Origin: Kineosporia babensis
Lineage (GTDB): Bacteria > Actinomycetota > Actinomycetes > Actinomycetales > Kineosporiaceae
Length of the DNA stretch: 64,000 bases
Assembly (NCBI RefSeq): GCF_021129305.1
Contig: NZ_JAJOMB010000007.1
Coordinates: 248,001-312,000, forward strand
Direction: 5' to 3'
This document shows, piece after piece, positions 29,892-41,955 of this stretch. A model generated the notes under the pieces. That model searched no databases. It worked only from the letters and a program-made list of their open reading frames with translations, and was not told the DNA's origin. Each line of letters begins with the position of its first letter. Positions within the stretch are counted from its first letter, which is position 1. The position numbers and the translations under genes were made by a program.

Positions 29892-30701
29892 CTACAGCTG
29901 GGTGGTTCCGGCGTCGACCGTCATCGCCAGCGCGGTCACGTAGCGGGACTCGTCCGAGGCCAGGAAGAGCACGGCGTTGGACTGGTCCTCCGGCTGGGTC
30001 GCGGCGATCGGGAGCATGTTGCCCATCATCGCGCCGAGCCGCGGGTCCTGCTCCAGCAGCGGGCCGAAGGCGTTGCCCATCGCGCCCATCGGCGTCTCCA
30101 CACCGGTCGGGTGCAGGCTGTTGACCCGGATGTGGTGCCGGGACAGCTCGGCCGCGAAGGTGCGGGCCAGGCCGGTGACGGCGTGCTTGCTGGCCACGTA
30201 CGGGGTGAGGAACGGCAGGCCCACCAGACCGGCCGCCGAGCTGGTCAGGATGATCGAGCCGCCGCCGGCCGCGATCAGGTGGGGCGCCCCGGCCCGCACC
30301 GTGTTCCAGGTGCCGGTGATGTTCACGTCGAGCGTGTCCTGCCACTGCTTCTGGGTGACCTTGTCCCAGGCGCCGACGTGGCAGATGCCGGCGTTGCCGA
30401 CCACGATGTCCAGCCGGCCGAGCTGGGCCACACCGTCGTCGACGGCCTTGGTCAGCGCCTCGGCGTCGCGAATGTCGGTGACCGAGGCGACGATCCGCCG
30501 GTCCAGCGCCTCGACCTGGCGTACGGTCTCGGCCAGATCCTCCTCGGTCGCCGCCGGGTACTCCAGGTCCTCGAACGGTGCGCAGATGTCGACCGCGATG
30601 ATGTCGGCCCCTTCCGAGGCCAGCTTGAGCGCGTGGCTACGGCCCTGCCCGCGCGCCGCTCCGGTGATGAATGCGACCTTGCCCTCGACACGTCCAGCCA
30701 T
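29892..30701 (-). CDS. Mycofactocin-coupled SDR oxidoreductase, second copy
   Basis: 269 residues from the ATG at 30701 with GGAGAGG 6 bases upstream; the longer open frame (43 more codons) has no family support. Motifs: GAARGQGRSHALKL, NAGI, SSAAGL and YVASK (Ser-Tyr-Lys). It has the same type of insertion (DICAPFEDLEYPAATEEDLAETVRQVEALDRR) seen in mycofactocin-dependent enzymes. It shares about half of its residues with the next gene, so the pair probably arose by duplication and then diverged in substrate. Confidence 0.92.
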   Translation of the reverse strand: MAGRVEGKVAFITGAARGQGRSHALKLASEGADIIAVDICAPFEDLEYPAATEEDLAETVRQVEALDRRIVASVTDIRDAEALTKAVDDGVAQLGRLDIVVGNAGICHVGAWDKVTQKQWQDTLDVNITGTWNTVRAGAPHLIAAGGGSIILTSSAAGLVGLPFLTPYVASKHAVTGLARTFAAELSRHHIRVNSLHPTGVETPMGAMGNAFGPLLEQDPRLGAMMGNMLPIAATQPEDQSNAVLFLASDESRYVTALAMTVDAGTTQL

Positions 30702-30973
30702 GGGGCACCTCTCCAACTTCGTTGTCAGTGAACGGCTTGTGCATCCCCTCCGCCTATTAGTAGCCCCGTCAACTACCTGCGCGCCTTCCCCAAAGGAGCA
30801 ATCCGGCCGTGACCTTGCTCTCATCGACAAGTGTCGAATGTCCTACGTTTTCCCTGGTAGACAAGGACTTTGGCCCTTTTCCGGAGGATCTGCTCGCGGG
30901 CATGACGAAATGCCCCGGGACCGCTGGTCGCTCGGAGCTTGCCTTCGAAGGCTTTATGTAGTTGGCAAAACGG
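30702..30973. promoter_or_regulatory. Control region upstream of the SDR pair
   Basis: No coding frame. It contains a perfect short palindrome TCGACA-AG-TGTCGA (30824-30837) and GCCTTCGAAGGC (30941-30952). Either could be an operator for the SDR operon, whose ribosome site is at 30705-30713. No match to the TGACAC-N3-GTG dyad was found here. Confidence 0.5.
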
Positions 30974-31014
30974 CGGCGCGCGGCCCTCTTCCGCAGGAAG
31001 AGAACCGCGCGCCG
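30974..31014 (-). terminator. Terminator of the mftABC operon
   Basis: CGGCGCGCGG (30974-30983) pairs with 31005-31014 and an inner stem CTCTTCC/GGAAGAG continues it around a GCA loop. On the minus strand it is followed by CGTTTTGCC. It lies just after the mftC stop. Confidence 0.9.
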
Positions 31015-31028
31015 GCGTTCTTCACCGA

Positions 31029-32417
31029 TCAGACCGCCTGAGAGCCTGTTTCGAGGCCCGGCTGCGGGGTGAACCCGGTGAGCGGGTTCTCGTCACAGCC
31101 GCGGGTGGGCGGCCGGACCCCGGCCGCGCTGGGATCGAAACCAGCGAGCGGGTTCTCGTCGCAGCCCCGGGCCGGTGGGGCCGAGACCACACCAGTGGCC
31201 GGGCGTACGCCCAGGGTCAGGGCCACCGGCTTCTTCTTGAGCTTCTGGCTGCGCAGCGGGTTCTTGTGCGAGTGATCGAGACTCGGCTTCGGGACCGAAC
31301 CCTCGACCGCGTCCAGCGCCGACTCACCGAAACCGCGCACGCACTCCGGGTCCGGACCGTCCAGCGGCAGGCCGGTGAAGAACTTGGCCGCCATGCAGCC
31401 GCCCCGGCAGGAGTCGAAGAACTGGCAGGACGAGCACGCCCCACCGCTCTGCGGCTGCCGCAGTTCCTGGAACAGTTCCGAGGTCTGCCAGACGCCCTTG
31501 AAACCACCCTCGTCCCGGACGTTTCCGGCCAGGAACTCGTCGTGGATGGCGAACGGGCAGGCGTACACGTCGCCCACCGGGTCGATCAGGCAGACCACCC
31601 GGCCGGCGCCGCACAGGTTCAGCCCGGGCAGGGCGTCGCCGAAGGCGGCCAGGTGGAAGAAGGAGTCGCCGGTGAGGACCTCCTCGCCGTTGGCGACCAG
31701 CCAGTCGTACAGCTGCTTCTGCTGCGGGGCGAGCAGGTGCAGCTCGTCCCAGACGTCGGCGCCGCGGCCCGAGGGACGCAGCCGGGTCAGCCGCAGCTGG
31801 GCCTTGTACTTGTCGGCGATCGCCTTGAACTCGTCGAGCTGGTCGACGTTCTGGCGGGTGACCACCACCGACAGCTTGAACCCGTGGAAGCCGGCGTCAT
31901 ACATGTTCTGCATGGCCCGCATCGCGGTGTCGTAGCTGCCGGCCCCGCGGACGTAGTCGTTCACCTCGGCGGTGGCGCCGTCGAGCGAGATCTGCACGTC
32001 CACGTAGTCGGACTTGGCCAGGCGCTCGGCCACTTCCTTGTTGATCCGCACACCGTTGGTGGAGAACTTCACGCCGACGTGGTGCTCGGTCGCGTAGTCC
32101 ACCAGGTGCCAGAAATCCGGTCGCACCGTCGGCTCGCCGCCGCCGATGTTGACGTAGAAGACCTGCATCCGCTCCAGCTCGTCGATGACCGCTTCGGCCT
32201 CGGCGGTGGTCAGCTCGCGCGGGTCACGCCGGCCCGAGGAGGACAGGCAGTGCACGCAGGCGAGGTTGCAGGCGTAGGTGAGCTCCCAGGTCAGGCAGAT
32301 CGGCGCGTCCAGCCCGAGGGCGAACTTGTCGACCAGCCGGCCGGGAGATGGGGTAGCGGGCTTACTGGGATTCGGGGTGAAACCGGCCGGGGTAGCCGGT
32401 TCGAGCACAGCCGTCAT
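31029..32417 (-). CDS. mftC: Mycofactocin radical SAM maturase MftC, C-terminal motif duplicated
   Basis: 462 residues. MftC performs oxidative decarboxylation and then cyclisation of the terminal Val-Tyr of MftA. The radical SAM cluster motif is CNLACVHC region (Cys50, Cys54, Cys57), with GGGEPTVRP as glycine-rich SAM motif. The SPASM region has CSSCQFFDSCRGGC and PECVRG for auxiliary clusters. The C-terminus is unusually long: the motif CDENPLxGF occurs twice, at 419-427 (A) and 441-449 (T), separated by a Pro-rich linker, while only one such copy is expected. It overlaps mftB by four bases (ATGA). Confidence 0.95.
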   Translation of the reverse strand: MTAVLEPATPAGFTPNPSKPATPSPGRLVDKFALGLDAPICLTWELTYACNLACVHCLSSSGRRDPRELTTAEAEAVIDELERMQVFYVNIGGGEPTVRPDFWHLVDYATEHHVGVKFSTNGVRINKEVAERLAKSDYVDVQISLDGATAEVNDYVRGAGSYDTAMRAMQNMYDAGFHGFKLSVVVTRQNVDQLDEFKAIADKYKAQLRLTRLRPSGRGADVWDELHLLAPQQKQLYDWLVANGEEVLTGDSFFHLAAFGDALPGLNLCGAGRVVCLIDPVGDVYACPFAIHDEFLAGNVRDEGGFKGVWQTSELFQELRQPQSGGACSSCQFFDSCRGGCMAAKFFTGLPLDGPDPECVRGFGESALDAVEGSVPKPSLDHSHKNPLRSQKLKKKPVALTLGVRPATGVVSAPPARGCDENPLAGFDPSAAGVRPPTRGCDENPLTGFTPQPGLETGSQAV

Positions 32418-32749
32418 GCAGGCTCCTCCGTGGACGTCGTCTTGGGACGGATGAGGTCACCCGCCGCCAGGGACGCAAGCGCCCGGCCCAGGGCCGGGAG
32501 GTGCGCCGGGTCGACCCCCGCCTCCAGACACGCAGTACGCGCGTCCGGGGCGGCGGCCAGACCATTGACGACGTCCAGTAGTTGACGGGTCTTCAGGAAC
32601 GACAGGCGCCGATTCCCGAAGTGGTACATCAGGGCGCCGAAGGGCTCGGGCCGGATGGAGACGCTGGGGTGCAGCTCCCACGCGACGTCGAGATCGAAGC
32701 CCTGTGCAGCCGGTGGGGGCACCGACATCCGGTTGGTCTGGGTCGTCAT
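32414..32749 (-). CDS. mftB: MftB, RRE-type peptide chaperone
   Basis: 111 residues beginning MTTQTNRMSV; a start at Met8 is also possible because no strong ribosome site is present. MftB binds the MftA leader and presents it to MftC. The central part (FDLDVAWELHPSVSIRPEPFGALMYHF...) is a PqqD-like RRE winged helix, followed by a helical C-terminus. It starts 13 bases after the mftA stop and its TGA overlaps the ATG of mftC. Confidence 0.92.
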   Translation of the reverse strand: MTTQTNRMSVPPPAAQGFDLDVAWELHPSVSIRPEPFGALMYHFGNRRLSFLKTRQLLDVVNGLAAAPDARTACLEAGVDPAHLPALGRALASLAAGDLIRPKTTSTEEPA

Positions 32750-32762
32750 GGCCAGGTGGACG

Positions 32763-32867
32763 TCAGTAGACGCCGCACATCCCGTCGATGGAGACCTCTT
32801 CGACGAGCAGCTCCTCGACGGAGTCCTGAACTTCGACGGCGTCCTGGGGCGCGTTCGTGTTGTCCAT
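32763..32867 (-). CDS. mftA: Mycofactocin precursor peptide MftA
   Basis: 34 residues, too short for common gene callers. It begins MDNTNAPQD, has an acidic leader (SVEELLVEEVS) and ends IDGMCGVY, the hallmark of MftA. The last two residues, Val-Tyr, become mycofactocin. ATG at 32867 has GAGAGG 8 bases upstream. It is the first gene of mftABC and lies downstream of a dyad that overlaps its promoter. Confidence 0.96.
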   Translation of the reverse strand: MDNTNAPQDAVEVQDSVEELLVEEVSIDGMCGVY

Positions 32868-32908
32868 CGAAACGACCTCTCTTCCACGTTGAATGCTGGT
32901 GATCGGAG

Positions 32909-32937
32909 TTTATGACACTGCGTGTCGTAAACGTCAA
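32909..32937 (-). promoter_or_regulatory. mftA promoter with candidate MftR operator
   Basis: TTTATGACAC (32909-32918) and GTGTCGTAAA (32922-32931) are inverted arms with one mismatch and a 3-base centre. On the minus strand, TTGACG (32937-32932) can act as -35 and TAAACT near 32909 as -10, so the dyad fills the spacer, a classic place for TetR-type repression. The divergent mftR gene starts 122 bases away. Confidence 0.7.
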
Positions 32938-33052
32938 GACTGGTTATCGACGCGTTCGCGAGGTAGACCGATCGCCCGAAGCGGGGGAAAAGATCACTCC
33001 GATGATTGAATGAGCGGCAACAGCAGTGCCACACGAGGGAGAGTGCACGGCG

Positions 33053-33670
33053 ATGCCGGCGGGGACAGGTTCCAAACAGGCGGAGGCCCGCAGCGGCCGG
33101 CCCCGCGCCACCAGCCGCCACAACCTGGAGCGGATCGCCCTGGAGCTGTTCGCCGAGCAGGGCTTCGACGCCACCACGGTGGAGCAGATCGCCGAGCAGG
33201 CCGGGGTCAGCCGGCGCACCTTCTTCCGCTACTTCGACACCAAGGCCGACGTGCTCTGGTCGGACTTCGACGCCGAGGTGGCCAGCCTGCACCGGCTGCT
33301 GGCCGCGGCCCCGGCCGACCAGCCGCTGACCGAGGCGATCCGCCAGGCCGTGCTGACCGCCAACCACTACGGCGTCGCCGACGTGGCCAGCCTGCGCACC
33401 CGGATGCAGGTGATCGCCGGGGTCCCGGCCATCCAGGCCTCCTCCACCGCGCACTACGACAACTGGGCCGGGGCCCTGGCCGCGTTCGCCGCCCAGCGCC
33501 TGGGCCAGCAGCCCGACGACCTGATCCCGCAGGCCATCGGGTTCAGCGCGCTCGGGGTCTGCCGGGCCGCCTTCGACCAGTGGGTGGCCCGCCGCGACGC
33601 CGACCTGATCAACTATCTCGACATCGCCCTCACCGCCTGGAAGTCCGGCTTCAGCGACCTGCCCGCCTGA
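33053..33670 (+). CDS. mftR: TetR-family regulator MftR
   Basis: 205 residues from the ATG at 33053 (GGGAG about 11 bases upstream); a GTG at 33026 is less likely. N-terminal TetR DNA-binding domain: ATSRHNLERIALELFAEQGFDATTVEQIAEQAGVSRRTFFRYFDTKAD (landmark only). The C-terminal ligand domain matches the mycofactocin-associated MftR type, with ACYL-CoA-like pocket expected from the family. It is divergent from mftABC and a dyad lies between them, so it probably represses mftABC and perhaps mftD. Confidence 0.9.
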   Translation: MPAGTGSKQAEARSGRPRATSRHNLERIALELFAEQGFDATTVEQIAEQAGVSRRTFFRYFDTKADVLWSDFDAEVASLHRLLAAAPADQPLTEAIRQAVLTANHYGVADVASLRTRMQVIAGVPAIQASSTAHYDNWAGALAAFAAQRLGQQPDDLIPQAIGFSALGVCRAAFDQWVARRDADLINYLDIALTAWKSGFSDLPA

Positions 33671-34448: not shown

Positions 34449-35711
34449 GTGACCGACGGCTCCAGCACGCTCTCCCTGGAGGACCTGGCCCCCGAAGCCG
34501 GAGTCCTGCGGATCTACCGCCAGGTGTTCGCCGTGCTCGCCCGCGAGCACGGCGCGATGATCAGCGACGTCGACCTCCTGGACGTCGACGAGGCGATCAT
34601 GGCCGCGTTCGCCGAGGCCGGCACCGAAGGCATGACCCTGGAGACCGCGGTCGCCTCCTGCCGGCGGTTCGACCAGAACATCGTCTCGCGGCGCTTCGAG
34701 GTGCTGCGCGGCTACGGGGCGATCACCCGGGTCGTGGACCATCCCGGCGAGCGCTTTCACCGGGCCGCCTTCGCCCCCTACGTCATGCTGCTGTTCCTGC
34801 GCCGCCTGGCGGCCGCCGGTGGCCAAGGTGAGCTGCACCAGTTGCTGGCCCTGGAAGGGCTGAGCATCCGCTCGCCCAGCGCCGGGGTGGAGGACGGCCA
34901 GGGCTCGGTGAACCGGCTCTCCCGCGTGTTCCGGCTGATGGCCAACCAGCTCTCCAGCCTGACCACCACCAGCCCGGTCGAGGAGCTGCGCGAGCACGCC
35001 GAGCTGCTGTGGGGCAACCGCGCGCTGATCCGCCAGGCCGAGGAGGTGCACTCACAGGCCCTGGGCCGCTGGCCCGAGCTCGACCGCGAGTGCGCCCAGC
35101 TGCGCACCGCCCTGGCCGCATACGCCGACGCCAGCGAGTCAGCCGCGGCCCGGCTGATCGAGCAGGCCGGGTCGACCCGGGCGCTGGGCCTGCTGCCGGT
35201 CGAGACCTGGCGCAGCTTCGCCCGCACCGCCGACGCCGAGACGCTGGCCGGGGTGCTCAAGGGCCAGACCTTCGACGCGGTCGCGCCGTGGTTCTCGCCC
35301 CAGGCCATGGCCCTGGCCGTGGACAACGCCCAGTCCTCCGGGCCGGTCCGGATGCCCCCGCCCCGGCCCACCGGCGACACCGACGCCCCCACCGATCGCC
35401 CGGTCTCGGCGGACAGCGACCTGATCGAGTTCACCGACCGCGTGCTGGCCAGGCACCGCCGGGTCGGGGTCTCCCAGCTGCTGGACGACGCGGACGACTG
35501 GATGCAGGCCCGCCGGATCCTGTCGCTGATGGTCGCCGCGCACCACTCCCCCGAGGTGAATGCCGAGCTGACCTGGTCGGACGGGTTCCGGGTGGACCCC
35601 GAAGGACCGGTCGCCTGGGTCTCCGGCGGGATGTTCGGGCGCACCGCCGTCCCGGCCGGCCGTTCCTCCGAAGAAGGCTCCGAAGAAAGCACTGAGGCTG
35701 TCCAGGCGTGA
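34449..35711 (+). CDS. SMC-operon protein 1, possible MukF/JetA-like kleisin
   Basis: 420 residues. The N-terminus (10-110) looks like a winged helix (ISDVDLLDVDEAIMAAFAEAGTEGMT... SRRFEVLRGYGAITRV), followed by an all-helical middle (110-290) rich in Leu/Ala/Glu and, after a Pro/Thr linker (about 295-320), a short C-terminal alpha/beta region. This order is like MukF/MksF/JetA proteins that link SMC heads. No catalytic residues were seen. Its stop overlaps the next GTG by four bases (GTGA), as do all four genes of the operon. The MukF relation is an inference from layout and context. Confidence 0.75.
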   Translation: MTDGSSTLSLEDLAPEAGVLRIYRQVFAVLAREHGAMISDVDLLDVDEAIMAAFAEAGTEGMTLETAVASCRRFDQNIVSRRFEVLRGYGAITRVVDHPGERFHRAAFAPYVMLLFLRRLAAAGGQGELHQLLALEGLSIRSPSAGVEDGQGSVNRLSRVFRLMANQLSSLTTTSPVEELREHAELLWGNRALIRQAEEVHSQALGRWPELDRECAQLRTALAAYADASESAAARLIEQAGSTRALGLLPVETWRSFARTADAETLAGVLKGQTFDAVAPWFSPQAMALAVDNAQSSGPVRMPPPRPTGDTDAPTDRPVSADSDLIEFTDRVLARHRRVGVSQLLDDADDWMQARRILSLMVAAHHSPEVNAELTWSDGFRVDPEGPVAWVSGGMFGRTAVPAGRSSEEGSEESTEAVQA

Positions 35712-36466
35712 ACAGTAGTGAGACCGCCCTCTGGTGGGCGCGTGCCCGGGCGCTGGGCCCGGCGCAGTACGAGACCGGCACCCCGGCCCCCGACGGGTTC
35801 CTGCGGCTGCTGGAACCGGACGCCGCGCAGGTGTGGCTGCTGCCCGCCCACCCGGGCACGGCCGGGCCCTGGGTGCTGGACGAGCTGGGCCTGAACGGGC
35901 CCACCGTGGAGCAGCCGAACGACACCGCCCGGATGCTGGCCGCCGTGGTGCGCTGCTGCTGGGCCGACCCGGACGACGCGATCTGGCCCGGCCAGGACGT
36001 CGACTGGGACGCCGTCATGTCGGTGTACCGGACCTTCGGCGATCGCGATGAACTGGTGGTGCACCGGGCCGCGACCGGCGCGATCCGGCGGCTGCACAGC
36101 GGTGGCTGGGTGATCTGGGACGAGAACCGGCGGGTGGTCCGTCTGGGGCCGCGCTGCGGCACCTGGGTGAACGCGGACCTGACGGTGTTAAGGGAGTTGT
36201 GGCGTTCGTTGCCTGCTCCGGACGAGCCCGACGACCAGGCGCCCGAGCTGGAAGAGCAGATTGAGGACGCCGGCGAGACCGGGTCCGGATCGGTCGCCTC
36301 CCGGCCCGAACCGGATAACCAGGCCGAACTGAACAACAATGCCGAATCCGTAGCGACGCCGGACACCGACCCCCGTACCGACGAGCCGGACGACGTGGAC
36401 GAGGCCGACACCCCAGCTGAGCCCGAAGCCGAGAACGACACCGAGCCTGAGGAGCCTTCCGCGTGA
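35708..36466 (+). CDS. SMC-operon protein 2 with acidic tail
   Basis: 252 residues. A folded N-terminal part of about 165 residues, rich in Trp (LWWARARALGPAQYE, WVLDELG, WPGQDVDWDA, GGWVIWDEN), is followed by 85 residues of acidic low complexity (Asp/Glu/Pro/Asn). No family was recognised. Acidic tails of this kind can mimic DNA or mediate assembly. It overlaps both neighbours by GTGA. By position it may be the counterpart of MukE/JetB, or a unique subunit. Confidence 0.72.
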   Translation: MNSSETALWWARARALGPAQYETGTPAPDGFLRLLEPDAAQVWLLPAHPGTAGPWVLDELGLNGPTVEQPNDTARMLAAVVRCCWADPDDAIWPGQDVDWDAVMSVYRTFGDRDELVVHRAATGAIRRLHSGGWVIWDENRRVVRLGPRCGTWVNADLTVLRELWRSLPAPDEPDDQAPELEEQIEDAGETGSGSVASRPEPDNQAELNNNAESVATPDTDPRTDEPDDVDEADTPAEPEAENDTEPEEPSA

Positions 36467-37317
36467 CCGAGATGCACCCCGCGTTCACGGCGGCGGTGGC
36501 GGACCTGTCGGAGCGGCACCGCGACGAGGTGCTGGCGGCCTACGCGGCCCTGGAGCACAGCTGGCAGCCGCTGCACGAGTCCCAGCTGCTGGCCCTGCGC
36601 GACGCCACCCTGCGCCGCTCGCTGCAGCAGCTGCTGCACCCGCTGGGCCGCACCCTGGTCAAGGTCGGGCCGCACAACTGGACCTCGGGCTACCGTGACG
36701 ACATCTCCCGAGAGCTCAGCGCCGAGATGCTGGACTCGCTGCCCCTGGTCGACCGGGCGGTCTTCGTCCTGATCCTGATCCACTCGGTGGCGATCCCCCG
36801 CAGCCAGGGCCTGGTCGACCTGGACTCCTGGATCTCCAACCAGCCCACGACGGCGGAAGAACTGACCCGCTACTCCAAACTCCCGCGCACCGCAGTGCGG
36901 GCCGGCCTGGCCCGGTTGCGCGCCTCCGGCCTGGTGCAGCTGGCCCCCGACCGACGCCCGAACTCCCAGAAGGCCGGAAGCAGTTCCAGCGCAGGAGCTT
37001 CCTACCTCCCCGGCCCTCAGCTGGCCCGCCTCACCCCAGCCGCCCGACGCCTGCTCCAGGAAGAACTGATCCTCGCCGCCGGAGCCGACACGCCCCTGGC
37101 CGCAGCGATCCGGGCCCGCCGAGCGCGCCCCTCCGAAGACGGCATCCCCAAGCCCGCCGAAGCCCACACCGACGTGCCCCCGCAACCGGCGGCCGAACCG
37201 CCCGCTGCCACCGACGTCTCCAGTTCCGCCGCAAGCACGAGCACCGGCACCCAGCCGCCCACTCGCGCAGACGCGTCCTTTGCTTCTGAAAATTCTGTAC
37301 CGCAGGAGAATTCGTGA
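36463..37317 (+). CDS. SMC-operon protein 3, winged-helix protein
   Basis: 284 residues. After a helical N-terminus there is a clear winged-helix segment (VDLDSWISNQPTTAEELTRYSKLPRTAVRAGLARLRASGLVQL as landmark), similar to MarR or MukE-type WH domains, and then a disordered Ala/Pro/Ser/Thr C-terminal tail of about 80 residues. MukE/MksE proteins have tandem WH folds and sit directly before the SMC-like gene, as this one does, so it may be the KITE-type subunit. Overlaps neighbours by four bases on each side. Confidence 0.74.
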   Translation: MTEMHPAFTAAVADLSERHRDEVLAAYAALEHSWQPLHESQLLALRDATLRRSLQQLLHPLGRTLVKVGPHNWTSGYRDDISRELSAEMLDSLPLVDRAVFVLILIHSVAIPRSQGLVDLDSWISNQPTTAEELTRYSKLPRTAVRAGLARLRASGLVQLAPDRRPNSQKAGSSSSAGASYLPGPQLARLTPAARRLLQEELILAAGADTPLAAAIRARRARPSEDGIPKPAEAHTDVPPQPAAEPPAATDVSSSAASTSTGTQPPTRADASFASENSVPQENS

Positions 37318-40300
37318 CCACCGCGCCGCTCATCGCCGTCGACCGCAGCGACCCGAACGACATCGTCGGGCCGCGGGTACTGGTCGGCGTCCAGATGGTC
37401 GACATCTCCCGGCTCTCCGCGCACCCTGTCCCACTGACCAACGGCGGCCTGATCACCGTGGCCGGCCAGGGTCCGAAAGACTCCAACGGTGCCGGTAAAT
37501 CATCCTTCATCGCCGCGCTCAGCCTGCTGCACGCAGACGAGCAGTGGCGCCTGGCCGGTGGCGCGCCGGGTTCGGCCGAACTGCTGTTCACCGCGGAACT
37601 TGCCGCGCAGGAAGCACGCTGGGCCAATGCCGACCACGGTTTCGTCATCGGGGTCTTCGCCGATCCGTCGGCCCAGACCGTGGAGGAGCTCGAGGCCGGA
37701 TCGCTGACGGTCTGGCTGCGGATCAACCGTAAGTCGCCGTACCTGAGCCTGCGCTGGAAGCAGGGGCTGCACGTTCCCTACGGCGCGAACGATGCCGAAC
37801 GGGCGGCCGGGGTGCAGCATCTCTGGGCGCAGCTGCCGAACTCGAACGGTCGCGACGACTTTCACGCCGGTCGGCTGGCCCGCGTGCTGTACGGCGGCCA
37901 GGTGCGCTGCGTTTCGTTCCTCTCCACCTCGGTGCGCGCGTCTCCCGCCGCGAACTTGCTGGCCCAGCCGCTGAACGAACTTTCCCCCTGGCGCATGTTC
38001 GACGCCGTGGCCACCCTGACCGGCCTGGATCGCGAGCTGGAGCAGGAGCAGGCGCTGCGTTCGGGCGAGCACGCCCGGCGGGTGGACGTGGTCGAGGCCG
38101 AGCAGGATCTGGCCAACTGGCAGCGCGAGATGGAGGGCGTCGAGGCCGGGATCAAGCGTCGCGACGTGGCCCGGCAGATTCTCGGCCAGGCTCGCGAATC
38201 GTGGCACTCGCGCTGCGCTCGCCACGTGGTCGACGGGCTGGAGCGGATCAGCGAGATCCGGCGCAACCTGGGCGATGTCCGCGGAGGGCAGGCCGAGGCC
38301 CGCGAGCGCCTGGCCGAGAACGAGGCCCGGATGGAGGAACTCGGCAACGACGACGGGCTGCAGGAGACCTTCCGCCAGACCGAGCGCCTGCGCAACGAAC
38401 TGCGTGAGCGCCGGAGCAACGCCGACACCCAGGCCCGGATGAACCTGCGGCAGGTGGAAGAGCTCAGCGCGAAGCTGCGCGACCTGAAGGAAGCAGCCCG
38501 GGCGGCGGACGGCCGGGACGTGGCCAAAGCCCGCGAAGAGGTTGCGTCCGTGCAGGAGGCACTGGAGGCAGTCATCTCCCGGCGGGGCGCGGCCGAAGAT
38601 GCCGTGAGCGCTGCGGCCAAGCAGGTGAAGGCCGCCGAGGCTGGTGACGACGTGGCCGCGCAGCAGCTGAAACTCCTTCAGAAGGCCGGGATTCCGGCGG
38701 CCAGCGTGGTCGATGTCCTGGACCTGGCCGAGAGCGAGCGGGCGGTGTGGGAGCCCCGCCTGGCCCCCTATCGGCACGCGGTAGCAGTGCCCGCAGCACG
38801 CGCCGACGAGGCCCGCGAGGCGCTGGCCGACGAGCCCGGCTCGATGATCGTCCTGGCCGACGGTCAGCCCGGTTCCGGCCTGCCCTCCAGCACCACGGCC
38901 GAGTTCGGCCTGGCGTCCTTCCTGAAAACCCTTTCCGAGCGCGCTGGTTCACTGGACCAGCAGGTGGACGAGGCGGCCGGGGTGATCGTGATCGCCGGCT
39001 TCGAGCGTCCGCTCACCGGCCGCGACGCCCGGGTGCGGGCAGCCCGTGATCAGCACGAGGCCGCCCAGGAGCAGCTCGAGCAGATCGGCACCGCGCTCGA
39101 GAAGGCCCGGGCCCGGCTGGTCACCGCGACCGGACGGCTGGAGGGGGCCAAGGCCGCACAGCAGGTCGAGGAGGCCGAGTTCGAGATCGAGCGGCTTCGT
39201 GAGCAGGCCGGCGATCTGCAGGAGAACCTGGAAGAGCTGATCGGCCCGTTGGAGGACGCCGAGGCCGCGCACACCCGGGCAGCGGTGGACCGGCAGACCC
39301 GGCTGGACAAGATCAACACGCTGCGCGGCGAGGTCTCGCGCAGCAAGAGCGAGGTCAGTCAGGCCGAGCAGATCGCCGAGAAGCTGGAGTCGGAGCTGCA
39401 GGCGGTGGACGTCGATGCCCGCGCGGTGGCCTGGGGGGCCACTTCCGGCTCGGCCGAGCAGCATCTGCTGGAACTGCCCGAGGAGGAGCAGAAGCGCAGC
39501 ACCTCGGAGTGGAACGCGCTGGTCGTGTACCAGCTGGAAGACGTTGTCCGGCGGTGCTTCCCGGACAACACCCCGACGCAGGAGTACCCGGCCGAGCTGC
39601 GCACGCTGATCCACGAGCAGAAGTGGCGCAGCAGCCCGATCGAGACCCGGGTGCCGATGGTCCCCGACCTGGTCCGGGCCATGCGCACCCACCTCGACGT
39701 GACCGCTCAGCAGGACGCCCACGACCAGGCGATGATCGACCAGCAGCGGGCCCAGCGCCGGGCCGACCTGGAGGCCGCGCAGTCCGGCCTGGCCGAGTCC
39801 GAGCAGACCACCCGCGCGCACCGCGCCGTTCTGGCCCAGGGCATCAAGGCCAAGCTCAAGCTGGTCTCGGACGAGTTCGACCGGCTGGACCGGGAATACG
39901 GCGGGTACGGCGCCGGGCTGGAGTACCCCGAGCCCGAGCCGCCGACCGAGCCGGACAAGCCCTGGCGCTGGAGCCTGACCCCGCGCTGGCGACGGGCCGA
40001 GAACCAGCGGATGTCCAGCTACAACCTGCGGGCCAACACCGCGATGATGGACGAGAAGGCGGTCAAGCTGGTCTGCGCCTCGGCACTGGCCGGCGGCAAC
40101 GACCGGCCGCTGCTGCTGATTCTCGACGAACTGGGCCGCAACCTGGGCAAGCAGCACCGGCGTGAAGCGGTGGCGCTGTTCGAGCGGATCGGCCGCGACC
40201 GCAACATCACCGTGATCGGCGCCCTGCAGGACGACATGGAGCGCTACGCGATCGAGGCCTCGAACCTCTACATCAAGCTGCGCCGGTCCTCCGACGCAGT

Positions 40301-40439
40301 GGCCTACAACGATCCGCCGATCGTCCTGGGCGACGACGCGAACCGGGCCCGGGTGGAGATGCTGCGCGAGTGGATGAGCGCCTACCGGCCGCAGCGCACG
40401 TCGATCGATCTGCACGAGGACGAACTCGACCTGAGCTGA
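37314..40439 (+). CDS. SMC-like coiled-coil ATPase (possible MukB/MksB/JetC relative)
   Basis: 1041 residues. Walker A is GPKDSNGAGKSS (53-64) in an N-terminal head; two long coiled coils (about 230-450 and 560-860) flank a hinge-like central region (about 450-545); the C-terminal head has Walker B LLLILDELGRNLGKQH (933-948, Asp938). A canonical LSGGE signature before Walker B is not visible. Length is close to MksB/JetC, but the loop sequence is unusual. It is the last gene of a four-gene operon with GTGA overlaps. Likely function is DNA loop extrusion, chromosome organisation or plasmid defence; no JetD-like nuclease gene is found next to it. Confidence 0.85.
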   Translation: MTTAPLIAVDRSDPNDIVGPRVLVGVQMVDISRLSAHPVPLTNGGLITVAGQGPKDSNGAGKSSFIAALSLLHADEQWRLAGGAPGSAELLFTAELAAQEARWANADHGFVIGVFADPSAQTVEELEAGSLTVWLRINRKSPYLSLRWKQGLHVPYGANDAERAAGVQHLWAQLPNSNGRDDFHAGRLARVLYGGQVRCVSFLSTSVRASPAANLLAQPLNELSPWRMFDAVATLTGLDRELEQEQALRSGEHARRVDVVEAEQDLANWQREMEGVEAGIKRRDVARQILGQARESWHSRCARHVVDGLERISEIRRNLGDVRGGQAEARERLAENEARMEELGNDDGLQETFRQTERLRNELRERRSNADTQARMNLRQVEELSAKLRDLKEAARAADGRDVAKAREEVASVQEALEAVISRRGAAEDAVSAAAKQVKAAEAGDDVAAQQLKLLQKAGIPAASVVDVLDLAESERAVWEPRLAPYRHAVAVPAARADEAREALADEPGSMIVLADGQPGSGLPSSTTAEFGLASFLKTLSERAGSLDQQVDEAAGVIVIAGFERPLTGRDARVRAARDQHEAAQEQLEQIGTALEKARARLVTATGRLEGAKAAQQVEEAEFEIERLREQAGDLQENLEELIGPLEDAEAAHTRAAVDRQTRLDKINTLRGEVSRSKSEVSQAEQIAEKLESELQAVDVDARAVAWGATSGSAEQHLLELPEEEQKRSTSEWNALVVYQLEDVVRRCFPDNTPTQEYPAELRTLIHEQKWRSSPIETRVPMVPDLVRAMRTHLDVTAQQDAHDQAMIDQQRAQRRADLEAAQSGLAESEQTTRAHRAVLAQGIKAKLKLVSDEFDRLDREYGGYGAGLEYPEPEPPTEPDKPWRWSLTPRWRRAENQRMSSYNLRANTAMMDEKAVKLVCASALAGGNDRPLLLILDELGRNLGKQHRREAVALFERIGRDRNITVIGALQDDMERYAIEASNLYIKLRRSSDAVAYNDPPIVLGDDANRARVEMLREWMSAYRPQRTSIDLHEDELDLS

Positions 40440-41229: not shown

Positions 41230-41955
41230 TCAGTCCAGCAGGTGCCGAAGATAGCTCTGCGGATCGTCCAGGTAGCGCCGCCAGTGCTCCACGATCAGCA
41301 GGTCCTCCCAGGCCACCTCGCTGATCCCATTGGCGCCGAACTCCAGGATGCTCGCGCCCGGGGTGGAGGCCAGGATCGGCGAGTGCGTCGCGCAGACCAC
41401 CTGGGCGCCGCTGCGGCCGAGCCGGGTGAACAGCTCGACCAGCCGCAGCGACGAGGTGAACGAGAGTGCGGATTCAGGCTCGTCCAGCACGTAGAAACCC
41501 GGCCGGGCGAACATCGCGTCGAAGGCAGTGAGGAAGCCCTCGCCGTGACTCATCTCCTCGGTGTCGCCGTCCCAGTACCCCGGAACCCCACTGAGGCGGG
41601 CCAGCAGGCCCATCGCCGTCTCGGCCCGCAGGAAGAAACCCCGCCGGGCCTTGCGCGGACCGGTCATCATCCGCTGGCCGTTCGTGGTGGCGTCCAGCTT
41701 CAGCGCCCCGCCGAGCTCCGACACCGGGCGTGAGCTGGCGTATTTCGTGCCCGCCCTACCCCCGTAGGAGTCCAGGCCGAACGCCTCGGCCAGCGCCTCC
41801 ACCACCGTCGACTTGCCGGACCCGTTCTCCCCCACCAGAAACGTGATCGGCTTCGTGAAGGTCAGCCCCTGCTCGGCCAGGTCGGTCACCGCCGGAACGG
41901 TGAACGGCCAGGCGTCCAGATCGGCACCCTCGACGTACGCACGACGCACCAGCAT
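41230..41955 (-). CDS. AAA family ATPase (ABC-type, AAA_15/21 group)
   Basis: 241 residues. Walker A VGENGSGKST, a short linker containing RRGFFLRAE, signature-like EEMSHGEGFL, Walker B FYVLDEPESALSF and switch His in CATHSP. This is the stand-alone soluble ABC ATPase known in many bacteria next to defence or unknown genes. No membrane partner is adjacent. Its stop is three bases from that of the FadR-type gene on the other strand. Confidence 0.9.
   Translation of the reverse strand: MLVRRAYVEGADLDAWPFTVPAVTDLAEQGLTFTKPITFLVGENGSGKSTVVEALAEAFGLDSYGGRAGTKYASSRPVSELGGALKLDATTNGQRMMTGPRKARRGFFLRAETAMGLLARLSGVPGYWDGDTEEMSHGEGFLTAFDAMFARPGFYVLDEPESALSFTSSLRLVELFTRLGRSGAQVVCATHSPILASTPGASILEFGANGISEVAWEDLLIVEHWRRYLDDPQSYLRHLLD

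Follow-up and report, generated by a model that had tools for sequence, protein, structure and literature searches.

The operon described here occupies positions 34449-40439 of a 64,000-nucleotide stretch of DNA from the soil actinobacterium Kineosporia babensis (contig NZ_JAJOMB010000007.1, positions 248,001 to 312,000; called the window throughout), in a genome of 9.4 Mb. Translation agrees with a preliminary description of this DNA: four open reading frames (ORFs) of 420, 252, 284 and 1041 residues follow one another, and GTGA forms the overlap between stop and next start each time (Table 1). By computation, the molecular class of the operon, a structural maintenance of chromosomes (SMC) type of complex, is well supported. 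The divergent MukBEF/Wadjet-like complex proposed earlier finds support in the SMC fold predicted for P0004 and the MukF/JetA-type kleisin fold predicted for P0001.

Table 1. Coordinates of the operon, of features within P0004 and of neighbouring genes in the window
Feature	Position	Strand	Size or residues	Assignment and basis
P0001	34449..35711	+	420 aa	predicted MukF/JetA-type kleisin; AF2 model and Foldseek
P0002	35708..36466	+	252 aa	possible winged helix and acidic tail, candidate KITE-like subunit; alignment
P0003	36463..37317	+	284 aa	probable winged-helix protein, candidate KITE-like subunit; sub-cut-off MarR_2
P0004	37314..40439	+	1041 aa	predicted SMC-type ATPase; AF2 model, Foldseek, hhalign
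Variant Walker A VAGQGPKDSNGAGKSSFI	37458..37511	+	49-66	D in place of the first G of the P-loop
Hinge-like alpha/beta domain	38652..38993	+	447-560	between the coiled-coil arms; AF2, residues 544-552 below pLDDT 50
Variant ABC signature (NTAMMDEKA...)	40017..40097	+	902-928	
Walker B LLLILDELGRNLG	40104..40193	+	within 931-960	D-E pair intact
Upstream gene group	29892-33670			TetR regulator, radical SAM/SPASM protein, short-chain dehydrogenase
P0005	33998-34357		119 aa	small Cys-rich ORF
Small ATPase	41230-41955	-		AAA_21-type

The operon and its predicted proteins

P0004, described earlier as an SMC-like coiled-coil ATPase, is placed among the SMC proteins by its AlphaFold2 (AF2) model and by Foldseek. 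In the model, built on a 27-row alignment with a mean predicted local distance difference test score (pLDDT) of 80.3, an N-terminal half-head (residues 22-202) and a coiled coil (238-443) precede the hinge-like domain (Table 1), which is followed by a second coiled coil (570-698), a small helical part (700-768), a further coiled coil (776-861) and the second half-head (867-1023). This is the architecture of the SMC superfamily, with N- and C-terminal ABC half-heads, antiparallel coiled-coil arms and a hinge. Foldseek returned 94 PDB matches at E<=0.001, the top ten being Smc5/6, condensin, MukBEF and a Wadjet-II JetABC; Smc5/6 is the best single match (E=3e-19), with MukBEF at 7e-16 and the Wadjet-II JetABC, at rank 10, at 6e-14. 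On the strength of the model, P0004 is clearly predicted to belong to the SMC class. Sequence comparison by hhalign with a JetC1 alignment (22 rows, one duplicating the query) gave Prob 98.3 and a score of 136 vs 44.6 for the reversed control, chiefly over the coiled coil; the N-terminal head appeared as the second alignment (Prob 72.9) and, when isolated, reached Prob 69.4 vs 0.1 reversed. The match to MukB is confined to the coiled coil, which gives no sequence support for orthology to MukB or MksB, and the SMC_prok_A and SMC_prok_B models score 16.4 and 14.6 bits (curated cut-offs 729.4 and 567.35). The isolated hinge and mid-domain matched nothing above their reversed controls, known hinges included. 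Two named relatives were found with P0004, in K. rhizophila (92%) and K. mesophila (86%).

The ATPase motifs of P0004 are as unusual as had been noticed. The canonical Walker A (G-x-N-G-x-G-K) and LSGGE/Q are absent, with the Walker A lysine and the Walker B residues D938 and E939 retained: an aspartate replaces the first glycine of the P-loop within the string GPKDSNGAGKSS (residues 53-64), and NTAMMDEKA (908-916) stands at the LSGGE position. Residues D56, S57, N58, G61, K62, N908, A910, D938 and E939 are unchanged in 27/27 aligned relatives, which include loci with a neighbouring nuclease gene (see below); all 27 carry the P-loop DSN[GE][AS]GK[ST] and have N-x-A for S-G-G in the signature. 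The usual P-loop glycine is found in Smc, two SbcC proteins, JetC1 and JetC2 of the same genome and in E. coli MukB, and the signature position of these comparators reads S-G-G or S-T-G. Among the 22 JetC1 rows, a pattern search recovered the usual motifs in 20; the other two showed neither.

P0001, suggested earlier to be MukF-like, was modelled with a mean pLDDT of 69.8 and a predicted template modelling score (pTM) of 0.36, as an N-terminal winged helix (residues 41-106), a helical part (127-243) and a C-terminal winged helix (322-398). Foldseek ranks 1-10 are exclusively MukF, MukBEF, MukEF or JetABC(D) entries, with MarR winged helices from rank 11; the best match, 9gm7_C (E=2.4e-4), is the sole one at E<=0.001, and a viral structure library gave none at that threshold. 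The matched chains are 260-498 residues long, which fits MukF/JetA and not MukE (234 aa), an assignment made by chain length and not by chain name. These models lend moderate support to a MukF/JetA-type kleisin encoded beside the SMC protein.

The two small proteins carry fainter signals of the kind first described for them. The acidic tail of P0002 holds 28 D/E vs 2 K/R in its last 79 residues, and the protein varies in length among relatives (198-260 aa in six Kineosporia; 176-199 aa in the split forms of genome G008 and family f38); it has a weak IclR winged-helix match (E=0.28). P0003 matches MarR_2 at E=1.5e-4, under the curated cut-off, and winged-helix regulators in the PDB at E=0.02 at best, consistent with a MarR-type winged helix.

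Family libraries do not name the operon. Searches of Pfam and NCBIfam with the four proteins gave nothing above curated cut-offs, and among 27 P0004 relatives searched against Pfam at E<=0.001, SMC_N matched one and AAA_21 one. PADLOC and PHROGs, which have no curated cut-off, returned weak matches. For P0004 these lie mostly in coiled coil, with LmuB at E=6.5e-6 and the SbcC-like phrog_77 at E=3.6e-5; mad8 aligns with the C-terminal head at E=4.4e-5, and the best JetC profile, JetC3, reaches no better than E=0.011. P0003 weakly matches winged-helix families. Our own JetA-C profiles found no match in the window and did match the positive control L142; the JetC1 profile touches the SMC protein of the related locus L117 at E=1e-4. 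The preliminary description had noted a distance from MukBEF, MksBEF and Wadjet and had named a direct profile match as contrary to its reading; none of the profile libraries matched the proteins directly to a Wadjet or MksB type. PDB sequence searches with the operon proteins returned coiled coils and weak winged helices; two strong-looking matches to designed proteins were set aside, no stretch passing alone. Among the papers listed by literature searches, no title or abstract opening describes the operon; the supplementary operon list of a Wadjet-group survey (PMC7617805) may include it.

Related operons, JetD-type nucleases and distribution

The order kleisin, P2 (P0002 counterpart), P3 (P0003 counterpart), SMC is kept at 35 complete loci of the window's clade, here the core clade (the window, L014-L019, L045-L059, L062, L119-L126, L128-L131), and at six divergent loci (L112, L114-L118). 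Distinct loci with four subunits were counted; not included were L012 and L013 as duplicates, L060 as a cut locus, and L061 and L113 as fragments. Since the gene order is the same in every complete relative examined, the operon is a unit beyond chance. P2 and P3 form a single ORF at 11 of the 35 core and three of the six divergent loci; at one of the latter, L118, P2 was recognised as part of the fused ORF by ORF length and alignment, and the P2 profile did not match. That fused forms turn up in two distinct regions of the tree suggests a joint function of P2 and P3. Position, weak winged-helix signals and fusion together point to P0002 and P0003 as KITE-like subunits. At L054:8902-13143 the P2 frame continues open into the SMC frame around P3, through a frameshift or an unusual fusion.

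Comparison of the window with four Kineosporia relatives (L016 unused) shows purifying selection on each of the four genes, with ratios of nonsynonymous to synonymous substitution (dN/dS) of 0.11-0.30: 0.11-0.19 for the SMC gene, 0.18-0.22 for the kleisin, 0.21-0.29 for P2 and 0.19-0.30 for P3. The neighbouring radical SAM and TetR genes gave 0.11-0.16 and 0.36-0.58. In a 65-row tree, made by a quick method and having 14 open forks and long divergent branches, families f1 and f38 each form one clade and f35 appears at three places.

The absence of an adjacent JetD nuclease, remarked on at the outset, is confirmed: two JetD profiles find none adjoining the operon or elsewhere in the window, and no trace is left. 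The neighbourhood survey proposed at the time gave a different picture for the relatives, where a JetD-type TOPRIM nuclease lies beside 5/6 divergent operons (not L117) and 1/35 core operons (L124). These counts apply to the flanks, mostly 5-7 kb (427 bases downstream for L128), the rest of the core-clade genomes not having been searched. A JetD profile derived from Wadjet I matches ORFs beside L114, L115, L116 and L118 at E 1e-9 to 9e-14, with 46-62 bits vs the 22-bit cut-off of Pfam JetD_C, and a four-row profile of these nucleases adds L112 (E=2e-15) and L124 (E=4.7e-15). The genes are closely linked to the operons: at L112 the nuclease gene follows the SMC gene by 12 bases, at L124 its start overlaps the SMC stop by GTGA, at L114, L115 and L118 it precedes the kleisin, whose start it overlaps at L115 and L118, and at L116 it is convergent to the SMC gene. 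Residues E290, N291, D337 and D339, which we take to be the TOPRIM acidic residues, are unchanged in 6/6. A six-row nuclease profile reaches C. glutamicum MksG at E=1.6e-5 and the JetD of the window's own genome at hhalign Prob 95; the L124 nuclease sequence alone found no match in the PDB. Core and divergent copies occur together in two f35 genomes, G773 and G809. Fragment L113 shows a faint JetD-like match (E=0.006), and L061:9529-10755 is a decayed relative, in which 79 residues with 61% identity to the C-terminus of P0004 are followed by an in-frame JetD-like remnant.

Genome counts below include the window's own genome where it was sampled, and many of the searches scored few first-look candidates per genome, so that misses are possible. 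The operon was found in 7/58 genomes of a sample of relatives, in all six genomes of its own genus and in 8/13 of its own family (G007 only by a coiled-coil match, E=8e-4). The class sample gave 24/296 genomes (G173 a remnant, G332 a weak match) and the phylum sample 4/396 (G469 fragmentary, G563 weak). Family f38 holds it in 14/22 genomes (genus g73 12/12, g93 2/2, g98 0/5, three other genera 0/3), f35, whose likeness to Nonomuraea is a 43% protein match only, in 79/200 (G714 weak), and f97 in 2/21, one of them fragmentary. Every searched genome of genera g1, g73 and g93 has the operon. Phage records gave no match for P0004 or for the L124 SMC protein, and a two-motif scan of viral contigs gave 367 pattern matches with no relative among them. 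The plasmid collection yielded one match, in the 11.85 Mb Nonomuraea gerenzanensis record NZ_LT559118.1, filed as a plasmid and evidently a chromosome. Common flanking clusters occur at 9/10 f38 loci examined; flanking genes are mostly common only within a genus or family, and the three clusters that cross families (9, short-chain dehydrogenases; 3; 30) look like common gene families.

The window's genome holds other, readily recognised SMC-type systems. A complete Wadjet I (JetA, JetB, JetC1, JetD) at G000:C67:316733-323343 (L142:4733-11343) lies outside the window, beginning 4.7 kb beyond its end and ~28 kb downstream of the SMC operon, with JetD ~10 kb beyond the same end; it was recognised by JetC1 at 1396.8 bits, JetA as DUF3375, JetB as DUF4194/MksE and JetD by JetD_C. 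Across the six Kineosporia genomes JetC1 is strong in two and weak (E=7e-4) in a third. The same genome encodes a Wadjet II-like JetC2/TIGR02680 protein of 1730 aa (L144:939-6131, G000:C17), two SbcC proteins, Smc (897 bits) and ScpB (168 bits).

A chromosomal role and its alternatives

Three features, namely the kleisin model, gene order and the adjoining JetD-type genes, point to a further type within the MukBEF/Wadjet group, whose Wadjet systems are directed against plasmids. Kleisin first, SMC last and small proteins between is also the arrangement of E. coli mukFEB and of the JetABC genes of the same genome. With Wadjet I (JetABCD/MksFEBG) the operon shares the order kleisin, small protein (candidate KITE), SMC, a MukF/JetA-type kleisin model, a remote JetC1 profile match and, at divergent operons, an adjoining JetD-type TOPRIM gene. 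It differs in that the window's subunits have no convincing Jet profile match, two small proteins or their fusion stand at JetB's place, the SMC protein has a variant P-loop and signature, and the window locus has no nuclease; where L114, L115 and L118 carry a JetD-type gene, it lies ahead of the kleisin. MukBEF and MksBEF are kleisin-KITE-SMC operons and, like the window's operon, have no nuclease, and MukF-type chains top the P0001 Foldseek list; their distance is seen in the 1041-residue SMC protein vs 1486 residues for MukB, in the hhalign match limited to coiled coil, and in the coexistence of the window operon with canonical Smc and ScpB. Wadjet II (JetC2, TIGR02680) and Wadjet III belong to the same superfamily, and a Wadjet-II JetABC structure is among the P0004 matches, whereas the JetC2 and JetC3 profiles give weak coiled-coil matches and a separate JetC2 exists in the same genome.

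By analogy with the family, P0004 would dimerise through its hinge and bind ATP at its heads, the P0001 kleisin would bridge these heads, and P0002 and P0003 would act pairwise on the kleisin, at the place of JetB or MukE. Such a ring-shaped complex of four proteins would bind and entrap DNA and most likely extrude loops; in the nuclease-less branch, it would most likely help to fold or segregate the host chromosome as MukBEF does, alongside the canonical Smc and ScpB. We favour, with moderate confidence, the reading that the operon encodes one SMC complex, of a MukBEF/Wadjet-group type unnamed in the annotation libraries searched, and that this mostly nuclease-less branch works on the host chromosome. 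Having no DNA-cutting subunit, it most likely acts on the bacterium's own chromosome, since chromosomes are the substrate of MukBEF and MksBEF, the group's nuclease-less members, according to the available excerpts of PMC10586767 and PMC7617805. The presence of the operon in all searched g1, g73 and g93 genomes favours the same role, as does the fact that Wadjet I is not in every Kineosporia. The flanking clusters common to most f38 loci, the single clades formed by f1 and by f38, the lack of matches in phage records and viral contigs, and a sole plasmid-collection match that is evidently chromosomal also speak for it. The preliminary description had named a condensin or a defence system; the distribution leans to the condensin-like, chromosomal side and does not decide between defence and housekeeping.

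Several observations weigh against this reading. The kleisin is a model of moderate confidence, with TM-scores of ~0.2 and one Foldseek match at E<=0.001, and hhalign of P0001 with JetA and MukF gave no match, so that sequence profiles do not support it. Nor did hhalign match P0002 or P0003 to JetB, or P0003 to MukE, and hidden Markov model searches found no match to JetB. The N-terminal head, compared with single sequences, barely separates JetC1, SbcC, MukB and Smc (Prob 14.0, 11.9, 10.4 and 10.2), and the C-terminal head scarcely exceeds its best reversed controls; because these single-sequence head scores are so close, P0004 alone does not establish JetC as nearest kin. The divergent set comprises only six loci, and in the tree the row of L117 does not join the other divergent rows in one clade; a search of the class with the divergent profile (35/394 genomes, seven only weak) added no further divergent locus. 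A weak or lost ATPase cycle is one possible meaning of the altered P-loop and signature. Finally, the operon is patchy between genera in its own family, in f38 and in f35, which would also be expected of a slowly moving defence system, and a JetD is encoded in trans by the Wadjet I of the window's genome.

These last points bear on the possibility that the complex still serves defence, sensing plasmid or phage DNA and silencing it by compaction without cutting, or borrowing the JetD of the resident Wadjet. The JetD-type nucleases at divergent operons and at core operon L124, the patchiness, and the complete Wadjet I whose JetD starts so near the window all speak for it. We nevertheless think it unlikely, as strong JetC1 is confined to two of the six Kineosporia genomes that all have the operon, every searched g1, g73 and g93 genome carries it, and phage records and viral contigs gave no match. 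Moreover, 16 flanking ORFs compared with Pfam (10 from three other loci, six from the window) include no named defence gene, except that the small ATPase downstream (Table 1) matches AAA_21, which is described as a putative AbiEii toxin family; PADLOC was not run on the flanks.

It is less probable still that the operon encodes a complex for DNA repair or recombination like Smc5/6 or Rad50. Smc5/6, with its subunits Nse1, Nse3 and Nse4, shares the SMC fold and provides the best single Foldseek match of P0004, and two different small, probably winged-helix partners in place of one, fused in some lineages, could make P0002 and P0003 an Nse1/Nse3-like heterodimeric KITE pair. Against this, the kleisin model is of the MukF/JetA kind, with no Smc5/6 entry among the 50 matches listed, the operon holds a single SMC gene and not two, and JetD-type genes accompany most divergent operons, which favours a kinship with Wadjet; no clear repair gene is a common neighbour across families, although a Mre11-type gene was not searched for. 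Least credible, to a degree that makes us all but discount it, is a decaying, functionless Wadjet relative whose variant motifs reflect loss: the missing nuclease, the replaced first P-loop residue and signature serine, and the visible remnant at L061 would fit, yet all four genes have the low dN/dS given above, and the variant residues are invariant in 27/27 relatives, including nuclease-bearing loci.

The reading as a chromosomal complex can be taken a step further, in a proposal that we hold tentatively, at somewhat less than even confidence. The operon would represent a further actinobacterial Wadjet type, with a non-canonical SMC active site (D in the P-loop, Asn-x-Ala for Ser-Gly-Gly) and a two-protein KITE; some members would have kept JetD, and one branch would have lost it and turned into a chromosome condensin, inherited vertically alongside Smc-ScpAB, in a second and independent run of the route proposed from Wadjet to MukBEF. 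Nuclease loss, as the direction of change, would parallel one proposal in which MukBEF-type condensins descend from nuclease-armed Wadjet systems (excerpted text of PMC10586767). A family of its own, with both armed and disarmed members, would make the step from defence to chromosome care testable, and the presence of both forms in one family (f35), even in the single genomes G773 and G809, allows direct comparison. The invariant departure of the P-loop and signature from the consensus likewise offers a natural way to test what ATP-driven engagement of the heads demands of an SMC motor. In some actinobacterial families, as the counts for f35 and f38 indicate, many genomes hold a probable SMC complex unnamed in the libraries searched.

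Neighbouring genes

Directly upstream of the operon, P0005 (dN/dS 0.17-0.37) was considered as a fifth member and dropped, being present among the compared loci in Kineosporia only. The small ATPase gene near the operon is conserved in some Kineosporia. Further upstream, the TetR regulator has an MftR C-terminal domain, and its gene group presumably forms part of a mycofactocin-type cluster.

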